Positions 148 to 7,746 of a DNA stretch of 7,746 bases are shown piece by piece (position 1 is the first letter of the stretch; every line of letters begins with the position of its first letter). The position numbers were made by a program, and so were the translations under genes. Source of the stretch: Bacteroidota bacterium (GTDB lineage: Bacteria; Bacteroidota; Ignavibacteria; Ignavibacteriales; Melioribacteraceae); contig JAMCSN010000326.1 in assembly GCA_023381535.1 (NCBI GenBank), forward strand, positions 289 to 8,034, in the 5' to 3' direction. The notes under the pieces are model-generated. The model ran no database searches and was not told the origin of the DNA. It was given only the letters and a program-made list of their open reading frames with translations.

Positions 148-176
148 ATTGTAGCCGCGTTGAGCTAAGCTTCCAA
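148..176 (-). promoter_or_regulatory. Possible sigma-70-type promoter for mscL
   Basis: On the minus strand TTGGAA (176-171) and TACAAT (153-148) are separated by 17 bases, a usual -35/-10 layout with 4 of 6 and 5 of 6 consensus matches. It overlaps the last codons of the Fic gene and would start transcription about 20 bases before the mscL start codon. It is a pattern match only and could be chance in AT-rich DNA. Confidence 0.35.
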
Positions 177-1223
177 GATATTTAAATAATCTTTATATAC
201 AAATATTCTGTTGCGTTGTTTTCCTGTTGTTTCTTCCAAGATGCTTTCGTCCAGCAATTTCTTGATTAAGATATTTGCCGTCTGCTTGTTGAAACCAAGT
301 TCTTTTGTAATAAAAGGGATGGTTAAAACGGGCTGCCGCAATATTAAATCAAACAACCGTAACGAAAAGGAAGAAGCAAATTCTTTGTCGATGATTTTTT
401 GATAGTTGCGCTCTTCAATCGCCACAATTTTTTTTATTAGTTCGAGCGTAGATTGTGTGGCGGAAGAGACCGTCCTAACAAAAAATTTTATCCATGCTTC
501 CCAATTTTTTGTCCTCTCTAAATTTTCCAGATGATCAAAATATTCTAGTTTGTTCTTAAGAAGCTGCGATGAAATTTGGAGTCCGGGCAGATTCAGTTTT
601 TTCTTCCACAACAAATGAAGCACAAACAAAATTCTTCCTACAAAACCGTTTCGTTCTGAAAAAGGATGGATCATTTCAAACTGAGCGTGGATTAATGCGG
701 CGTTAACAACAACAGGGTACGAAATATCGGACGCAACATAATTCTCCAAATCATTCATTAACGTCGGGACTTCATCATGTGACGGTGGAATGTATCTTGC
801 ATCAACCAAATTATCTTTTTGTTGTCCGACCCAAATCGGTGTCTTGCGGTACTCTCCCTGATCCGTTCCCGTCTTTAGTTCTTTATGCACCGACTTTATA
901 ATGTGCGAGGAGCTCGAAACATTTTTGATCAACCTTTTGCCAACGGAAAGTGCCGCTGTGTAGTTTAAAATTTTGTTTACTCGTTCCGAGTTCTCGTTTA
1001 GGGATTCATTAAAAAAATCTCTGGGAGAGAGTTCTTCATTATCTACGCTGTTACTGTTGATCGCTTCTATAACCGTTAAGATTGCGGGGAGGTAATGAGT
1101 CTCTGGAAAGATCGACAGAATTCCATCGAGATAGTTTAATTGTTTGTCGGCTTCAGAGATAATAGTAACCATCTCGGAATCCAGCCGCGGCTTCGGTTCT
1201 GGGGGTAAAGGTTGTAACTTCAT
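165..1223 (-). CDS. Fic-family protein (predicted AMP/NMP-transferase) with a deviant Fic motif and C-terminal winged helix
   Basis: This is a 352-residue protein of the common Fic_N-Fic-wHTH layout. Residues about 1-92 match the Fic N-terminal domain (PLPPEPKPRLD, ADKQLNYLDG). The Fic core spans about 100-255, and residues about 283-345 look like a winged helix-turn-helix (FNKQTANILIKKLLDESIL). Fic enzymes transfer AMP or another nucleotide group to a hydroxyl side chain of a target protein through the loop HPFx(D/E)GNGRxxR. Here residues 186-197 read HPFSERNGFVGR. The catalytic His186, acidic Glu190, Asn192, Gly193 and final Arg197 are kept. The anion-loop Gly at 191 is Arg, and the first motif Arg at 194 is Phe. 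The usual inhibitory motif (S/T)xxxE(G/N) appears as S57-N-S-V-D61-N62, with Asp for Glu. The gene is otherwise intact, so a decayed pseudogene is unlikely. The target and the reaction cannot be read from the sequence; activity may be reduced or altered. Paired inverted repeats upstream suggest tight, perhaps self-directed, repression. Confidence 0.88.
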   Translation of the reverse strand: MKLQPLPPEPKPRLDSEMVTIISEADKQLNYLDGILSIFPETHYLPAILTVIEAINSNSVDNEELSPRDFFNESLNENSERVNKILNYTAALSVGKRLIKNVSSSSHIIKSVHKELKTGTDQGEYRKTPIWVGQQKDNLVDARYIPPSHDEVPTLMNDLENYVASDISYPVVVNAALIHAQFEMIHPFSERNGFVGRILFVLHLLWKKKLNLPGLQISSQLLKNKLEYFDHLENLERTKNWEAWIKFFVRTVSSATQSTLELIKKIVAIEERNYQKIIDKEFASSFSLRLFDLILRQPVLTIPFITKELGFNKQTANILIKKLLDESILEETTGKQRNRIFVYKDYLNILEA

Positions 1224-1504: not shown

Positions 1505-1879
1505 TTAAGCGAGAAGATCCTCGTCTCGGTAAAGCAGCAGGATGGCAAGTTGAGAAACAATAACAAACTTTTCTTTTTCTATCTCAACATCAATTGCATC
1601 TTTTCTGAGGAAGAGAGCAAAGTCTCCCTCTTTGGCTTGAAGCGGAATATACTTCGTTGTTTTCTTTTCATGCCAGGGTTCATCATCATCAATCGGCATT
1701 CCGATCGGGTAACCGGGCCCCGCTTTAATTACATAACCGCCCTGAACTTTTTCTTTTTCATGAACGCCGGGAGGAAGATAAAGTCCGCTGTGAGTTTTGT
1801 TTAGGTTTTCTTCTGGCCTAATTAGAACGCGGTCGCCGACAATAATTATTTTTTCCGTATGTATCACTTCGCTGCCCAA
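1505..1879 (-). CDS. GroES-like co-chaperonin, long divergent form
   Basis: This is a protein of about 124 residues with a Cpn10 fold signature: VGDRVLIRPEE at 14-24, a mobile-loop-like segment THSGLYLPPG at 29-38, and VIKAGPG at 50-56. Canonical GroES is about 95-100 residues. Here roughly 30 residues (57-86, YPIGMPIDDDEPWHEK then YIPLQAKEGD) sit between the GPG turn and the last strand. Residues 94-115 replace the usual C-terminal strand. GroES caps the GroEL chamber in the cytoplasm, and the mobile loop carries the hydrophobic contact (here LYL at 33-35). No groEL is adjacent, so this is an orphan paralogue, and its partner is unproven. No in-frame ATG exists between the upstream TAA and the conserved core. 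The start must be TTG (1879) or GTG (1867), and neither has a convincing ribosome binding site. I recall similar long forms from Bacteroidota annotated as GroES family. Confidence 0.82.
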   Translation of the reverse strand: MGSEVIHTEKIIIVGDRVLIRPEENLNKTHSGLYLPPGVHEKEKVQGGYVIKAGPGYPIGMPIDDDEPWHEKKTTKYIPLQAKEGDFALFLRKDAIDVEIEKEKFVIVSQLAILLLYRDEDLLA

Positions 1880-2692: not shown

Positions 2693-3301
2693 ATGGAAGA
2701 AAAAGAACGAATTCTAAATTTAACGGAAGAAAGGATTTTTAGGGATGGGTTTTATAAAACCCCGATGGACGAGATTGCGTCCGAACTTAGAATAAGCAAG
2801 AAAACCATTTATAAGTTCTTCCCCTCTAAGAGCGATATGGTCGAAGCGATCGTGAGGCGGTTTATGAAAAAAAGGCAACAAGATGTACTGCCCATCTTGA
2901 ACAGCGACAAAAACGCGGTAGAAAAATTTGCGGGGATCGTCTTTCTGATGACACAAAATCTTTCCAGAATAAGCGAAAAAACCTTTAATGATTTGCGAGT
3001 GCATTTTCCTTCTCTTTGGAACGAGGTGGAAAAATTCAGGACGGAAATGATAAACAAAAATATCACCAAAGTGGTTGAACAGGGCAAACGAGAGGGATTA
3101 ATTGCCGATTATCCGACGCCGATAATAATGACAATCTTCCTTTCATCTATTCGCTCAATTGTAAACCCCGATTTTATTTTAAACAATAATTTTTCAATAA
3201 AACAAGCAACACAAATAACATTTCAAATTCTGATGAGCGGCATCCTTACGGAAAAAGGGGAGAAACTTTTTAAGAAATCAATCAGCGAGATAATACAATG
3301 A
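2693..3301 (+). CDS. TetR/AcrR-family transcriptional regulator of the efflux operon
   Basis: This is a 202-residue protein of standard TetR length. The N-terminal DNA-binding domain covers about residues 1-60: helix 1 KERILNLTEERIFRDGF, the PMDEIASEL helix (24-32), the recognition helix SKKTIYKFF (35-43), then the typical SKSDMVEAIV (45-54). The helical C-terminal half (about 65-195) is the divergent ligand-binding and dimerisation domain; no ligand can be predicted. TetR repressors usually block nearby transporter genes until a small molecule binds. The gene is first in the operon, and its TGA overlaps the next ATG (ATGA at 3298-3301), which implies translational coupling to the adaptor gene. 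Two identical inverted repeats on the promoter just upstream point to autoregulation. No strong ribosome binding site precedes the ATG, but this start leaves the complete helix-turn-helix domain. Confidence 0.9.
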   Translation: MEEKERILNLTEERIFRDGFYKTPMDEIASELRISKKTIYKFFPSKSDMVEAIVRRFMKKRQQDVLPILNSDKNAVEKFAGIVFLMTQNLSRISEKTFNDLRVHFPSLWNEVEKFRTEMINKNITKVVEQGKREGLIADYPTPIIMTIFLSSIRSIVNPDFILNNNFSIKQATQITFQILMSGILTEKGEKLFKKSISEIIQ

Positions 3302-4263
3302 AAAAATTAAATGCGGTATTCTTAACAACTGCCGTCATACTATTGTATGCATGCAGCGGAAACGACAAAAACAGTATCGAAGCTTCGGGCACTATTGAGG
3401 CAACTAATGTAACCGTTTCTGCAAAAGTTAGCGGGCAGGTAAAAAAAATATTTGTTAACGAAGGCAATAAGGTTAATGCCGGAGATACATTAATGATAAT
3501 TGATCATGATCTGCTTGCAATTCAACTGCGGCAGGCAGATGCTGCCGTTGATGCAGCAACGGCGCAATTGGCATTGCTCAAACAGGGCGCACGCACCGAG
3601 GACGTAATGCAGGCCGAAGAAGCTCTGAATCAAGCCAAAGCCAATTTTGAATTGGCTCAGGCAACGAAAGGACGAAACGAAAAACTTTTTCAGTCTAATT
3701 CGATTACGAAACAACAGTGGGACGACATCAGTACCAAATACGACGTCGCCAGCGCGCAGTTTAATTCCGCAAACGAGAACTATAAGAAGATTAAAAATCT
3801 AGCGCGACCGGAAGAAATAAAACAATCCCAAGCAAATCTCGACCGGCAGGTTGCCGCGGCAGATCTTCTTAGAAAAAACATCAGTGACTCATATGTTGCG
3901 GCACCCATCAGCGGAATTGTGGTTAAAAAGTTTATTGAAGCGGGAGAATCAGCTTCGCCGCTTTCGTCGTTAGTAATGTTATCCGACCTGAGTTATGTTG
4001 ATCTTGTAATTTATGTGTCGGAAACAGAATTGGGAAAAGTTAAGCTTGGTCAAGAGGCAAACGTTTCTGTTGATTCGTCCCCGGGTAAAACTTTCACAGG
4101 AAAAGTGATTTACATTTCTCCAACTGCCGAATTCACTCCGAAGAATATTCAAACCAAAGACGAACGGATAAAATTAGTCTTCGCGGTGAAGATACACATT
4201 CCAAATCCGGATTCCGGATTGAAAGACGGCGTTCCTGCTGATGCGGTTATCAACCTTAAATAG
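3298..4263 (+). CDS. HlyD/YbhG-type periplasmic adaptor lipoprotein
   Basis: This is a 321-residue membrane-fusion protein. The N-terminus is a lipoprotein signal, MKKLNAVFLTTAVILLYAC, with lipobox LYAC and acylated Cys19. The first biotinyl/lipoyl half-domain is at about 29-70 (GTIEATNVTVSAKVSGQVKK). A long helical hairpin covers about 74-195 and has Ala/Gln-rich heptads. The second lipoyl half is at about 199-230 (VAAPISGIVVKKFIEAGE). A beta-barrel segment follows (VDLVIYVSETELGKVKLGQ). The C-terminal stretch AEFTPKNIQTKDERIKLVF (277-295) is characteristic of the YbhG/YhiI branch of HlyD adaptors. Such proteins bridge an inner-membrane ABC exporter and a TolC-type channel. All of those partners are encoded next to it except the permeases, which are presumably beyond the window. 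The start overlaps the tetR stop, and the next gene begins 2 bases after its stop. Confidence 0.92.
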   Translation: MKKLNAVFLTTAVILLYACSGNDKNSIEASGTIEATNVTVSAKVSGQVKKIFVNEGNKVNAGDTLMIIDHDLLAIQLRQADAAVDAATAQLALLKQGARTEDVMQAEEALNQAKANFELAQATKGRNEKLFQSNSITKQQWDDISTKYDVASAQFNSANENYKKIKNLARPEEIKQSQANLDRQVAAADLLRKNISDSYVAAPISGIVVKKFIEAGESASPLSSLVMLSDLSYVDLVIYVSETELGKVKLGQEANVSVDSSPGKTFTGKVIYISPTAEFTPKNIQTKDERIKLVFAVKIHIPNPDSGLKDGVPADAVINLK

Positions 4264-4265
4264 AA

Positions 4266-5198
4266 ATGACGGCAAGAATGGAATTCGCAATCAAAATAAA
4301 TAACATTAAAAAGATTTACGGAGAAGTTTCCGCTCTTAAAGGAATTTCGCTGGACGTTGTGCCGGGAGAAATGTTTGGATTGGTTGGACCTGACGGTGCG
4401 GGCAAAACTACAACAATTAGACTTCTCTGCGGTTTGCTAGCGCCTTCGGATGGTTCGGCGGAATTGTTTGGTCTCGATCTTGTAAAAGATAAAAACAAAA
4501 TTCAAAAACATATCGGGTACCTTTCGCAGAAGTTTAGTTTGTACGGAGATCTTACAATAGACGAAAACATAGAGTTCTTTGCCGATCTTCACGGCGTAAA
4601 AGATTATCAAGCGCGAAGAAACGAGCTGCTGGAGTTTACGCGATTGACGCCGTTTCGGAACAGACTTGCCGATAATTTATCCGGCGGCATGAAGCAGAAA
4701 CTCGCGCTCGCATGCACTTTAATTCATAAACCGAAAATCATTTTTCTTGATGAACCAACAACCGGCGTTGATCCCGTATCACGCCGTGACTTTTGGAAGA
4801 TTCTTTCCAGCTTGCAAAAAGACGGAGTTACAATTTTCATGTCAACACCGTACCTGGATGAAGCCGAGCGGTGCAACCGTGTTGCGCTCTTGAACAACGG
4901 CGAGGTTCTAAGTTTTGACACGCCGAAGAAAATAAAATCTTCCATCAACAAATCAATTGTTGAAATAGTTTGTTCGCCGATCATCTCGGCTTATAAACTT
5001 CTTAAAGAAAAGAGCGGTTACGAAGTTCAAATGTTTGGTGACCGGCTGAACGTGGCGGTTGATAATTATAAAGAGGATTTCGGTGCAATCGAGAAACGGC
5101 TCATTGAGAACGGTGTTCAAATGGTGGATCATAGAATAATTCCAACTTCGCTTGAAAATGTATTTATCCATTTAATCGGCGAGTCGGCAAATTCTTAA
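4266..5198 (+). CDS. ABC transporter ATPase 1 of a YbhF-like exporter (H-loop His replaced by Pro)
   Basis: This is a 310-residue nucleotide-binding protein of the ABC-2 export class. Visible motifs are Walker A GPDGAGKTT (41-49), the Q-loop YLSQKFSLYGDLT with Q88, the signature LSGGMKQ (138-144), and Walker B IIFLDEP with D162 and catalytic E163. The segment TTGVDPVSRRDFW (166-178) matches the YbhF/RbbA branch. The H-loop reads FMSTPYLDEAE, so the usual switch histidine is Pro195. Residues about 235-310 form a C-terminal extension seen in this branch. It would power export with ABC ATPase 2, encoded 1.8 kb downstream, as a heterodimer. Together they correspond to the two halves of tandem YbhF-like ATPases. 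The gene follows the adaptor stop by 2 bases. ATG at 4278 is an alternative start, since the first four residues are not conserved. Confidence 0.92.
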   Translation: MTARMEFAIKINNIKKIYGEVSALKGISLDVVPGEMFGLVGPDGAGKTTTIRLLCGLLAPSDGSAELFGLDLVKDKNKIQKHIGYLSQKFSLYGDLTIDENIEFFADLHGVKDYQARRNELLEFTRLTPFRNRLADNLSGGMKQKLALACTLIHKPKIIFLDEPTTGVDPVSRRDFWKILSSLQKDGVTIFMSTPYLDEAERCNRVALLNNGEVLSFDTPKKIKSSINKSIVEIVCSPIISAYKLLKEKSGYEVQMFGDRLNVAVDNYKEDFGAIEKRLIENGVQMVDHRIIPTSLENVFIHLIGESANS

Positions 5199-5224: not shown

Positions 5225-6544
5225 ATGAAAAAAATATTTGTAATTGTTTTGTTGATGGCAATAAGCATATCAGCGCAAACTCAAAATCTTACTTTGACGC
5301 AAAGTTTGGAAATTGGAATGAAGAACAGCAAAGACCTAAAGATTTCGCAATCGAAATTGGCTGGAGCTTCTGCACAAGTTACGGCGGCTAATTCGCAGCT
5401 TCTGCCGCAAATTGGTTTATCCGCAAGCTACATGCGGTTAAGCAACATTCCCCCGTTCGAAGTAACCTTGCCTTTCTCTCCGAAGCCAATTCAGATTTCA
5501 CCGGTGATTTTGGATAATTATTCCGTCAAACTAAGTCTTCAGCAGCCACTGTTTACCGGATTCAGATTGTGGTCGGTAAAAAACGCAGCCGAATCAAATT
5601 ATGAAGCGACAAATTCGGATTATCTAAAAGATATGAACGAAGCCGCTTTCAAAATTGAAAATGCATTTTGGAATTACTACAAAGCTCAGCAGTACGATAA
5701 ACTTCTAGATGAGAATTTGAATCAGATCAAGCAGCATCTTGACGACACAAAGAATTTTATGCAGAACGGACTGGCAACGAAAAACGATTTTCTAAAACTG
5801 GAGGTTCAACACTCTTCAGTTAAGCTTCAAAAAATAGAAGCGGATAACCAGCTTGATATCGCAAGGATGTTTTTTAATCAAACAATCGGCTTGCCGCTGG
5901 ACTCCCCCACTACAATCGAGACCGGAGATTTATCGGCGAATATTGTTGACCTTAAGATTGAAGATTTACTCAACGAAGCAAAGAATAATAGAAACGAATT
6001 GAAGTCTCTCGACTACCGCGTTAACGCCAGCATCGCAAGTCTTCGTGCGGCACAATCGGCGTGGTTCCCTTCAATATTTCTTGTCGGCGATTATTACTAC
6101 AGCAAACCGAATCAGAGATTTTTGCCGGCGGTAAATGAATTTAAAGATACCTGGGATTTGGGAGTAACTTTATCATGGAGTGTTTGGAATTGGGGCTACA
6201 CTTCATCGCAAACTTCAATTGCGGAACAAAACAAAATACAAGCGGAAACCGTTCTATCACAATTGAAAGATGCTGTTGATATAGAAGTTCAACAAAACTA
6301 TCTGACTTACAAAAGATCATTCGACAAAGTGAATGTTGCAAAGTTAAGCGTAGATCAAGCAGAAGAAAACTATAGAATCACGCAGGAAAAATACAACTCC
6401 CAAGTTGCATCCAGCACGGATTTAATTGATGCGGAAGCGGCGCTTCTTCAGGCGAAGACAAGTTACAGCAATGCTCTTGTCGATTATGAAATTGCGAGAG
6501 TGCGTTTGGATAAATCGGTTGGAAGGAAGATTTACGGAAAGTAG
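5225..6544 (+). CDS. TolC-type outer membrane efflux protein
   Basis: This is a 439-residue protein of normal TolC-family length. A Sec signal peptide (MKKIFVIVLLMAISISA, probable cut before Gln18) is followed by two outer-membrane-efflux repeats. Repeat one starts with LTLTQSLEIGMKNSKDLKIS (22-41) and includes SYMRLS and the strand VKLSLQQPLFTGFRLW (101-116). Repeat two starts near NNRNELKSLDYRVNASIASL (254-273), with LGVTLSWSVWNWG (312-324) as the equivalent strand. It ends in a long helix with EENYRITQEKY (380-390) and SSTDLIDAEAALL (396-408). Trimers of this family form the barrel and periplasmic tunnel that exports substrate delivered by the adaptor and ABC pump. The gene lies 26 bases after ATPase 1. 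Its stop codon TAG (6542-6544) is also the first three bases of the inverted repeat that flanks the next gene. Confidence 0.92.
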   Translation: MKKIFVIVLLMAISISAQTQNLTLTQSLEIGMKNSKDLKISQSKLAGASAQVTAANSQLLPQIGLSASYMRLSNIPPFEVTLPFSPKPIQISPVILDNYSVKLSLQQPLFTGFRLWSVKNAAESNYEATNSDYLKDMNEAAFKIENAFWNYYKAQQYDKLLDENLNQIKQHLDDTKNFMQNGLATKNDFLKLEVQHSSVKLQKIEADNQLDIARMFFNQTIGLPLDSPTTIETGDLSANIVDLKIEDLLNEAKNNRNELKSLDYRVNASIASLRAAQSAWFPSIFLVGDYYYSKPNQRFLPAVNEFKDTWDLGVTLSWSVWNWGYTSSQTSIAEQNKIQAETVLSQLKDAVDIEVQQNYLTYKRSFDKVNVAKLSVDQAEENYRITQEKYNSQVASSTDLIDAEAALLQAKTSYSNALVDYEIARVRLDKSVGRKIYGK

Positions 6545-6561
6545 GAGATAGAAGTTAGAAT
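6542..6561 (+). repeat. Left arm of the inverted repeat flanking the S23 gene
   Basis: The 20-base arm starts with the tolC stop codon TAG and ends in GTTAGAAT; it is the exact reverse complement of 6965-6984. The pairing stops at both ends of the 20 bases. A related motif, AGATAGAA, appears at 6546 inside the arm and again at 6567, 21 bases further on. Confidence 0.9.
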
Positions 6562-6609
6562 ATAGTAGATAGAATGAATTGAAAACAGCAGAAAGATTAC
6601 TTAACAAAC

Positions 6610-6615
6610 GGGAGG
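6610..6615 (+). promoter_or_regulatory. Strong ribosome binding site of the S23 gene
   Basis: GGGAGG lies 7 bases before the ATG, a near-perfect Shine-Dalgarno site. The neighbouring operon genes have weak or no such sites, so this gene carries its own translation signal. Confidence 0.75.
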
Positions 6616-6622
6616 AAAAGAA

Positions 6623-6985
6623 ATGGAAAAGTCTAAAAGATTTACTGAACTAATTGTCTGGCAAAAAGCGCATGAATTTGTTTTGGGGGTATATAGCGCG
6701 ACAAAAATGTTTCCCAAAGAAGAGTTGTTCGGGTTAACATCTCAATTAAGAAGAGCGGCGGTTTCAATTCCAGCGAATATTGCAGAAGGTTATCGTAAAA
6801 GAGGAAAGATGGACAAAGCAAGATTTTTTAACATGGCAGAGGGCTCGTTGGAGGAGTGTTATTATTACATGATTTTAGCTAATGATTTAGGTTACGCGAA
6901 CACGGAAAATTTAAAAGGACTTTTAAACGAGGTTGGAAAACTCTTGAACGCATATTCCAAAAGCATTCTAACTTCTATCTCCTAA
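6623..6985 (+). CDS. Four-helix-bundle protein of the S23 (23S rRNA intervening-sequence protein) family
   Basis: This is a 120-residue protein of typical family length. Diagnostic stretches are FTELIVWQKAHEFVLGVYSA (7-26), the highly conserved FGLTSQLRRAAVSIPANIAEG (36-56), RFFNMAEGSLEECYYYMILA (67-86) and DLGYANTENLKGLL (88-101), which match the four helices in order. Family members form small homo-oligomeric bundles with a basic surface. They are named from ORFs in 23S rRNA intervening sequences, and the related Avd protein serves diversity-generating retroelements. The cellular role of solo copies is unknown. This copy lies 78 bases after tolC and 19 bases before ATPase 2, in the operon direction. 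The last six residues (ILTSIS) and the first two bases of the stop codon are encoded by the right inverted-repeat arm. There is no rRNA sequence and no reverse transcriptase nearby in the window. The family call is certain; the function is not. Confidence 0.95.
   Translation: MEKSKRFTELIVWQKAHEFVLGVYSATKMFPKEELFGLTSQLRRAAVSIPANIAEGYRKRGKMDKARFFNMAEGSLEECYYYMILANDLGYANTENLKGLLNEVGKLLNAYSKSILTSIS
6965..6984 (-). repeat. Right arm of the inverted repeat flanking the S23 gene
   Basis: This is the perfect reverse complement of 6542-6561. It contains the last six S23 codons and the first two bases of the stop codon (TAA at 6983-6985). Just beyond it lies a further degenerate copy of the same CTAACTCCTAA-like sequence (to about 6992), which has no match on the left because tolC coding sequence lies there. 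Confidence 0.9.
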
Positions 6986-7004
6986 CTCCTAAATTCTCAA
7001 CACA

Positions 7005-7746
7005 ATGCAAACAAACGATAAATATTCAATACAAGTAAATAACCTGACAAAAAAATTTGGCAGCTTTACCGCCGTTAACGGAATTTCGTTCAACGTTAAG
7101 CAAGGGGAAATCTTTGGCTTTCTGGGCGCAAACGGTGCAGGCAAATCCACCGCGATTAAAATGTTATGCGGAATTTTAGAACCGACCTCCGGCGGCGCAA
7201 TGGTCGGAGGATTCAGCGTGATGAACCAGCCCGATAAAGTGAAAACGCAGATTGGATACATGTCGCAAAAGTTTTCTCTTTACAATGATCTAACGGTAGA
7301 AGAGAACATAAACTTTTTCGGCGGCGTTTACGGACTTTATAACAACAAACTTGCAGAAAGAAAAAAGTGGGTCTTGAAGGTTGCCTACCTCGAAGGGAAA
7401 GAAAAATTATTAACCGCATCATTACCGGGCGGAATCAAGCAACGGCTTGCTCTTGCCATTGCCGTTATTCACGAACCGAAAATAGTTTTTCTTGACGAAC
7501 CTACCGGAGGCGTCGATCCGATCTCAAGAAGAAACTTTTGGGATTTGATAAACGAGCTTTCACAAAACGGAGTAACAGTTTTTGTAACAACCCACTATCT
7601 CGATGAAGCCGAGTTCTGCAACACGATAACTTTGATCAATGCCGGCAACATCATTGCAAGCGGCAGCTCGAAAGAATTGAAAACGAAATATTTGACCAAC
7701 ACTATTTTGGAAGTGGAAAGCGATAGAGTTGTTGACGCACTTGATA
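7005..7746 (+). CDS. ABC transporter ATPase 2 of the YbhF-like exporter (runs off the right edge)
   Basis: The frame is open from ATG 7005 to the end of the window (247 codons seen). The motifs are Walker A GANGAGKST (41-49), the Q-loop YMSQKFSLYNDLT with Q88, Walker B VFLDEP with D164 and E165, GGVDPISRRNFW (168-179), and an intact H-loop TTHYLDEAE with His197. The signature is LPGGIKQR (140-147), with Pro where most ABC proteins have Ser. LPxGxKQR signatures are familiar in the second half of YbhF/RbbA-type tandem ATPases. It resembles ATPase 1 closely over its whole length and probably pairs with it. The C-terminal extension is cut by the window end, and ABC-2 permease genes should follow. 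It begins 19 bases after the S23 stop with no clear ribosome binding site of its own. Confidence 0.9.
   Translation, partial: MQTNDKYSIQVNNLTKKFGSFTAVNGISFNVKQGEIFGFLGANGAGKSTAIKMLCGILEPTSGGAMVGGFSVMNQPDKVKTQIGYMSQKFSLYNDLTVEENINFFGGVYGLYNNKLAERKKWVLKVAYLEGKEKLLTASLPGGIKQRLALAIAVIHEPKIVFLDEPTGGVDPISRRNFWDLINELSQNGVTVFVTTHYLDEAEFCNTITLINAGNIIASGSSKELKTKYLTNTILEVESDRVVDALD

Follow-up and report, generated by a model that had tools for sequence, protein, structure and literature searches.

Inverted heptanucleotide-repeat arms around S23 four-helix-bundle genes point to a probable minimal insertion element in bacterial operons

Open reading frames (ORFs) of the S23 family lie in intervening sequences of the 23S rRNA of Coxiella, Leptospira and other bacteria. 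The passages of the source on which we draw describe the Coxiella example as 428 nt long with a 28-bp stem, call such sequences selfish, report mobile-element hypotheses for them and ascribe no known function to S23/four-helix-bundle genes (PMC4990558). For CPR bacteria, S23-type ORFs are likewise described from insertions in 16S and 23S in the corresponding section of PMC11270868. Degenerate 7-nt repeats that fold into hairpins, as the arms of S23 genes described below do, are known from two cyanobacterial settings, neither of which is tied to S23 in the excerpts concerned: short tandemly repeated repetitive (STRR) hairpins, made of 7-bp repeats, lie for example between hupS and hupL and have no known function (PMC2670836), and the P6b heptad stems of the Nostoc tRNA-Leu intron, with motifs TDNGATT and NNTGAGT, belong to repeat classes whose origins are given as ‘not known’ (PMC4476775). 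The TAACTGA heptamers of Beggiatoaceae lie between genes as 7-nt repeats, occur also in Cyanobacteria and some Bacteroidetes and, in the portion of the article cited, had no mechanism evident to the authors; unlike S23 arms they are direct repeats, mostly upstream of start codons, and the terms ‘S23’ and ‘four helix’ are absent from the main text (PMC4679880). The Avd protein of diversity-generating retroelements has a fold homologous to that of S23, according to the part of PMC10053308 that deals with it. In the open-access literature searched, outside which most subscription papers fall, we found no link of S23 to heptad arrays or to empty sites. REPINs and MITEs are small hairpin units moved in trans. 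The S23-less heptad hairpins reported here look like MITEs; S23 elements, unlike MITEs and REPINs, carry a conserved gene of their own and ends that vary between elements.

The locus compared with these systems lies in the window, by which we mean the whole 7,746-nt stretch of DNA that was analysed. Its efflux operon is ordered TetR (2693–3301), HlyD (3298–4263), ABC ATPase 1 (4266–5198), TolC/OEP (5225–6544, plus strand), S23 and ABC ATPase 2 (7005–7746, plus strand, running off the window). Profile matches, together with an in-frame check of ATPase 2, place S23 between tolC and the second ATPase, as a previous sequence-only reading had it. The exact reverse complements which that reading had noticed at 6542–6561 and 6965–6984 (both given on the plus strand) are indeed complementary at 20 of 20 positions, with 403 nt in between; they form the sole 100% inverted pair among the 25 listed of the 39 found in the window, and when the window was shuffled 200 times in blocks of 2 bases, no exact inverted repeat at most 600 nt apart exceeded 17 nt, against 20 observed. 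The ORF at 6623–6985 (plus strand, 120 aa), preceded by a GGAGG at 6611–6615 (plus strand) that reads by eye as its likely ribosome-binding site, belongs to the S23/23S_rRNA_IVP family by both PF05635 (E 1.4e-36, 125.4 bits, cut-off 33.8) and TIGR02436 (E 6.9e-35, 119.6 bits, cut-off 24). The bracketing noted for this gene holds, with corrections: the arms do enclose S23, but the right one lies inside the gene rather than outside it and encodes the C-terminal residues, and the left one starts at the tolC stop codon (TAG, 6542–6544). Divided by eye, both perfect arms are portions of longer degenerate arrays of 7 nt. The left array (about 6542–6576, plus strand) reads TAGGAGA, TAGAAGT, TAGAATA, TAGTAGA and TAGAATG, has a lag-7 self-match of 0.61 and supplies the perfect arm with its first 20 nt; the right array (about 6965–6998, plus strand) reads ATTCTAA, CTTCTAT, CTCCTAA, CTCCTAA and ATTCTC.

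The unit shares with 23S rRNA intervening sequences an S23 ORF in about 0.4 kb, complementary ends and sporadic presence, and the earlier statement that S23 ORFs occur in such sequences with pairing ends agrees with the excerpts of PMC4990558 cited above. Unlike them, it sits in a protein-coding operon instead of an rRNA gene, has heptad-array arms and occurs in filled and empty DNA pairs; neither the window nor any of 20 S23 loci searched matched an Rfam family, rRNA families included, at the gathering score. Terminal inverted repeats of the kind seen in DNA transposons and insertion sequences are present, and a transposase is not: in profile searches the S23 ORF matched only S23 and Avd-type models and no known recombinase, and two overlapping minus-strand ORFs of the unit (61 and 90 aa) had no Pfam match, which bears out the suggestion that the unit has no transposase of its own. 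Unlike Avd systems, it shows no reverse transcriptase or template repeat; no reverse transcriptase was found among the eight window proteins scanned, the DivGenRetAVD model reached 32.3 bits against a cut-off of 80, and the combination of a profile score over the cut-off, a reverse transcriptase and TR/VR repeats that marks Avd members was not seen here. Elsewhere the window encodes a Fic/DOC-family protein with Fic_N and HTH domains (165–1223, minus strand), a Cpn10-like protein (1505–1879, minus strand) and a methyltransferase (1956–2552).

S23 genes with inverted arms recur at unrelated sites, a point that the sequence-only reading had asked to have tested. Copies were counted in relatives of the window. 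S23 genes are multi-copy and very common there: of 12 genomes to which the loci led, 11 have a match (up to 25 per genome), as do 55 of 57 family members, and a sample of 148 genomes from the phylum of genome G001 includes 113 with a match above the cut-off. Arms were scored by local alignment of the left flank with the reverse-complemented right flank over about 200 bp on each side, a span that misses arms lying further out. Genomes of this phylum supplied 147 unique, nearly complete S23 genes whose flanks were full, a non-random sample of best-scoring matches in which 80 stretches were hand-picked from lists; of the 147, 92 scored at least 13.5 and 73 at least 15, leaving 55 copies below the arm cut-off. 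Neighbouring genes, those within 400 bp of S23 being left out, reached these scores in 2 and 0 of 159 cases, and artificial pairs of one element’s left arm with another’s right arm in 8 and 4 of 294. Armed copies were also the rule on cyanobacterial plasmids, where 28 records carry S23 and 14 S23-bearing stretches were taken (13 of 13 scored at least 13.5, L192 being dropped for its broken S23), and on viral contigs (30 of 31 scored copies, against 1 of 20 neighbour genes; 36 loci less two duplicates and three short or cut ones). The window’s S23 protein matched nothing at E 0.001 in annotated phage records. S23 genes often come in pairs 1–3 kb apart, as in G029:C21, G063:C228, G038:C233 and G155:C14. 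A four helix bundle gene is also listed between guanylate kinase and NaMN adenylyltransferase in a table of a Flavobacterium columnare paper (PMC5524665), in the portion cited again at an operon junction.

The 7-nt periodicity of the arms is general. In the 101 arms of at least 20 nt that came from 105 armed elements among 160, mean self-match was 0.576 at lag 7 (0.311 shuffled) and 0.582 at lag 14 (0.325 shuffled), and the best lag was 7 in 38 arms, 14 in 36 (7 or 14 in 74 of 101) and 8 in 19. The heptads are element-specific, for example GGATGCT, GAATTGA, GTTTGTA, AGAAGTC or GGGAACA, and are matched within one element. The more alike two S23 proteins are, the more alike their heptads (4600 pairs; Spearman 0.18, a value that none of 500 permutations reached). 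This correlation is carried by pairs above 50% identity among the 105 armed elements: median arm similarity is about 0.18 below 50% S23 identity and climbs to 0.22 at 50–60% (414 pairs), 0.35 at 60–70% (91 pairs), 0.55 at 70–80% (19 pairs) and 0.73 at 80–95% (6 pairs). Simple co-inheritance of gene and ends could account for this correlation. Arms of the AGAAGTC/AGGAGTC type are common to S23 genes of the window’s clade and of cyanobacterial plasmids. The heptad arrays, their match to S23 kinship and the S23-less derivatives described below formed no part of the sequence-only reading.

Plasmids of Nostocales carry filled and empty copies of the same operon. At site A, upstream of virB10, the unit is present in two Trichormus records and in Scytonema and absent, at 97.5–98.0% identity, from six of the records listed (Microchaete, two Tolypothrix, N. 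linckia, Aulosira and N. carneum), some of which may represent one lineage and three of which were read. The insert measures 428 bp, or 414 bp in Scytonema, which has 14 bp (two heptads) fewer, and an exact 5-bp target duplication, GTAAT, appears in each of the six pairings between two filled and three empty copies, simulation giving a chance of about 0.007 for a duplication of at least 5 bp. The two filled copies probably stem from one inherited insertion event; L183 has a decayed copy. Site C, filled in L178 and L192 and empty in L186–L189, shows a 5-bp repeat, TTCTA, within a stop codon and with a 1-nt difference from the empty copies. At site D, in pNsp_c, a unit with quite different heptads lies one gene further along the same operon with one mismatch in the five bases; a single plasmid operon is thus occupied at different junctions in different plasmids. 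At site E the unit lies inside the end of the upstream ORF and supplies a new stop, and at site B it separates cas10 from cmr3 in Picosynechococcus 7003 and is missing from 7002 (flanks 89%). In the phylum of the window, one site is filled in G155 and G090 and holds a 72-nt heptad-like spacer in G114 and G100 (93–95% identical), and at a second site G155 is filled where G100, G114 and G201 (92–94%) carry a short GAATTAA hairpin instead; at two other G155 sites, three or all of the four relatives compared are filled as well. Site A alone offers a clean target duplication. No duplication was readable at sites F, G, H, I and K (at the last of which G090 was not placed by anchors), because in the compared copies other insertions or remnants of heptads intervene or divergence is too great. 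The empty sites at 97.5–98% identity and the recurring arms support the earlier proposal that an S23 element had inserted into, or been captured by, an mRNA-coding operon.

The window’s own site is less clear-cut than these plasmids, although the expected empty junctions do exist. A scan for TolC relatives gave 15 loci, in 12 of which (L001–L012) the operon is present, and L107 was added from the S23 search. The second ATPase was found by in-frame query at its expected place with 75–99% identity in L001–L012, 63% in L107 and 58% in L013; L013 (TolC 31%), which is also empty, stays outside the 14-operon count, as do L014, ending 77 bases past TolC, and L015, with no second ATPase behind it. Of those 14 operons, five carry S23 between tolC and ATPase 2 (the window, L001, L002, L007 and L107), one (L006) holds a decaying remnant and eight (L003, L004, L005 and L008–L012) are free of it. 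Presence and absence are interleaved on a tree of HlyD, ABC1 and TolC: L002 has S23 and its sister L003 has none (support 100), and L107 has it and L009 does not (95). The S23 proteins of this site fall in one clade of eight rows, whose other three members, L108, L112 and L164, lie in different contexts, the former two between the two permease genes of a transport operon of this kind (with the end of ATPase 2 just upstream in L108) and the last in an unrelated place, so close S23 kin occupy more than one junction. The arms are unlike between loci yet pair within each, only weakly in L002; the left arm of L007 is a long tandem array of AGAAGTC/AGAAGAC, and L107 and L002 carry other heptads. No target duplication is readable at the window’s own site. 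Taken alone, the tolC site fits both several gains and one old gain with many losses. A conflict between S23 and host trees is not claimed here, as the key host fork has 72% support. The same junction holds another repeat in L010 (7317–7420), a different hairpin (AACACAGATAACACAGA...TCATCAGTGTTCCATT), and the contig of L009, titled Patescibacteria (BroJett037) with a TolC 57% identical to the window’s, is possibly misbinned.

By these observations the S23 unit is a real and widespread architecture and very probably mobile. It is present or absent as a block at operon junctions of close relatives, as a discrete insertion unit composed of a four-helix-bundle gene and heptad-array ends, kin to 23S rRNA intervening sequences, that behaves like a tiny mobile element with no recognisable enzyme for moving. 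We consider it probable that the unit is a minimal insertion element consisting of one S23 gene between inverted arrays of repeats of about 7 nt. The opposite reading, in which S23 is an ordinary operon gene inherited vertically and frequently lost, and the heptad hairpins belong to an independent repeat that accumulates near it, seems improbable. It would accommodate the single clade of tolC-site proteins, the decaying copy in L006, the age of the copies within genomes (protein identity among copies from 13 genomes peaks at 79%, with medians of 29–48%, the sample covering all 15 copies of G001, 18 of 25 of G002 and fewer of the others) and an orientation like that of ordinary genes. Against it stand the block difference at site A, with nearly identical flanks and an exact duplication, where the empty plasmids would have to be precise deletions; the use of different junctions of one operon in different plasmids; the spread of the eight-row clade over two transport-operon junctions and a third context; and the near absence of arms from neighbour genes (2 of 159). 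Near-identical copies were not found among those compared within the 13 genomes, so no recent burst has been caught, which speaks for rare movement and horizontal spread.

Whether the arms act in RNA or in DNA bears on a further alternative, an RNA-level element like the 23S rRNA intervening sequences, in which the arms would pair in the transcript, RNase III would cut the S23 segment from the operon mRNA and the arms would be kept for the stem. Intervening sequences do combine S23 ORFs with a terminal stem cut by RNase III in the text consulted (PMC4990558), the window unit folds with a 20-bp stem, and most units are in sense within operons. Yet selected RNA pairing should give more G-U than A-C mismatches, and the arms contain 94 and 111 respectively, so that wobbles are not in excess and do not speak for a selected RNA stem; folded as a whole, the unit is nothing unusual (z −1.41, with 14 of 100 shuffles as good), and a stem alone needs neither a 7-nt period nor heptad likeness among related S23 genes. 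We regard this explanation as rather unlikely, and the mismatch counts and ordinary fold lean towards a DNA-level role of the arms as putative arrays of binding sites. Orientation was dropped as an argument for insertion at the RNA level: where the flanking genes are codirectional, 116 S23 copies run sense and 8 antisense, and ordinary genes, S23 removed, are equally biased (210 and 7), with the plasmid copies L197 and L200 (2 of 14 plasmid stretches) antisense to both neighbours. Retro-type mobility, in which S23 would play the part of its homologue Avd, a reverse transcriptase would be supplied in trans and the transcript would be copied back into DNA, agrees with the weak, below-cut-off matches to bAvd and DivGenRetAVD, with sense insertion in transcribed junctions and with the resemblance of PF05635 to Avd, described as essential for retrohoming in the lines cited from PMC10053308. 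We judge it unlikely, since 7 of 13 genomes, picked for their many S23 matches or few contigs, gave no RVT_1 hit, although drafts can miss genes, and no template/variable repeat pair was seen in a non-systematic look. Mobilisation of the hairpins in trans by a HUH (Y1) transposase of the REP-associated type, as REPINs are moved, is least probable to us. Y1_Tnp does occur in 12 of the same 13 genomes, but none was found in G093, which has nine S23 matches, and HUH transposition leaves no target duplication, of which site A has one. Neither a reverse transcriptase nor a Y1 transposase, then, is shown to be needed, and both were set aside as required partners.

For the minimal insertion element that we prefer, the following route is conceivable. 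An S23 oligomer would recognise its own heptad arrays on DNA and join the two ends; in the cited part of PMC4990558, 2gsc, which with 2rld is one of the solved S23 relatives, is reported as a homopentamer. The unit might then be inserted by staggered cuts that a nuclease or transposase makes in trans or, less likely, that S23 makes itself. The family has nearly invariant polar residues at Q41, S48, N52, E55 and E78. Survivors would mainly be insertions that spare both neighbouring genes and are oriented with transcription, so that S23 could be expressed from the host promoter, and the matching of the two arms may be kept by exchange or copying between them (heptad slippage or hairpin-templated correction).

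Heptad hairpins also occur with no S23 gene between them. The 782 kb of loci contain 64 strong inverted repeats with S23 inside and 32 without it; of these 32, two are runs of N, and heptad hairpins whose loops are short are among the rest. Site H is occupied in N. edaphicum by an S23 element whose heptads are GGGAACA and in pNsp_c of ATCC 53789 by an S23-less insert with related heptads, and C057 has neither; further S23-less heptad hairpins lie in L186, L178, L193 and L179. Five hairpin stretches compared by tblastn with 14 S23 proteins gave no match at E 0.01. A stretch containing GGGTCTGAATC is common to the interiors of the S23-less hairpins at L186:59–304 and L179:4290–4450; it may be a small RNA or form its own repeat family. 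STRR hairpins and tRNA-Leu P6b repeats may descend from S23 elements. A bolder, tentative proposal, to which we give rather less than even credence, is that S23 elements form a mobile-element class of their own, in which a single non-canonical four-helix-bundle protein reads a private 7-nt end code and directs insertion, with 23S rRNA intervening sequences as its rRNA-borne members and cyanobacterial STRR hairpins and tRNA-Leu intron heptad stems as S23-less descendants. Two old questions, the function of S23 in rRNA intervening sequences and the origin of heptanucleotide hairpins, become one testable question, with S23 as candidate protein, heptads as candidate sites and well-defined empty targets in cyanobacteria. 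Among minor observations, CRISPR operons hold S23 elements, with cas10-S23-cmr3 (type III-B) in L177 and cas6-S23-cas4 in L194 (type I-D) and L199, two plasmids with unlike heptads; between cas6 and S23, L194 (1110–1450) has a heptad array of more than 300 bp (AGGTGAC/AGGGAAC), far longer than most arms.
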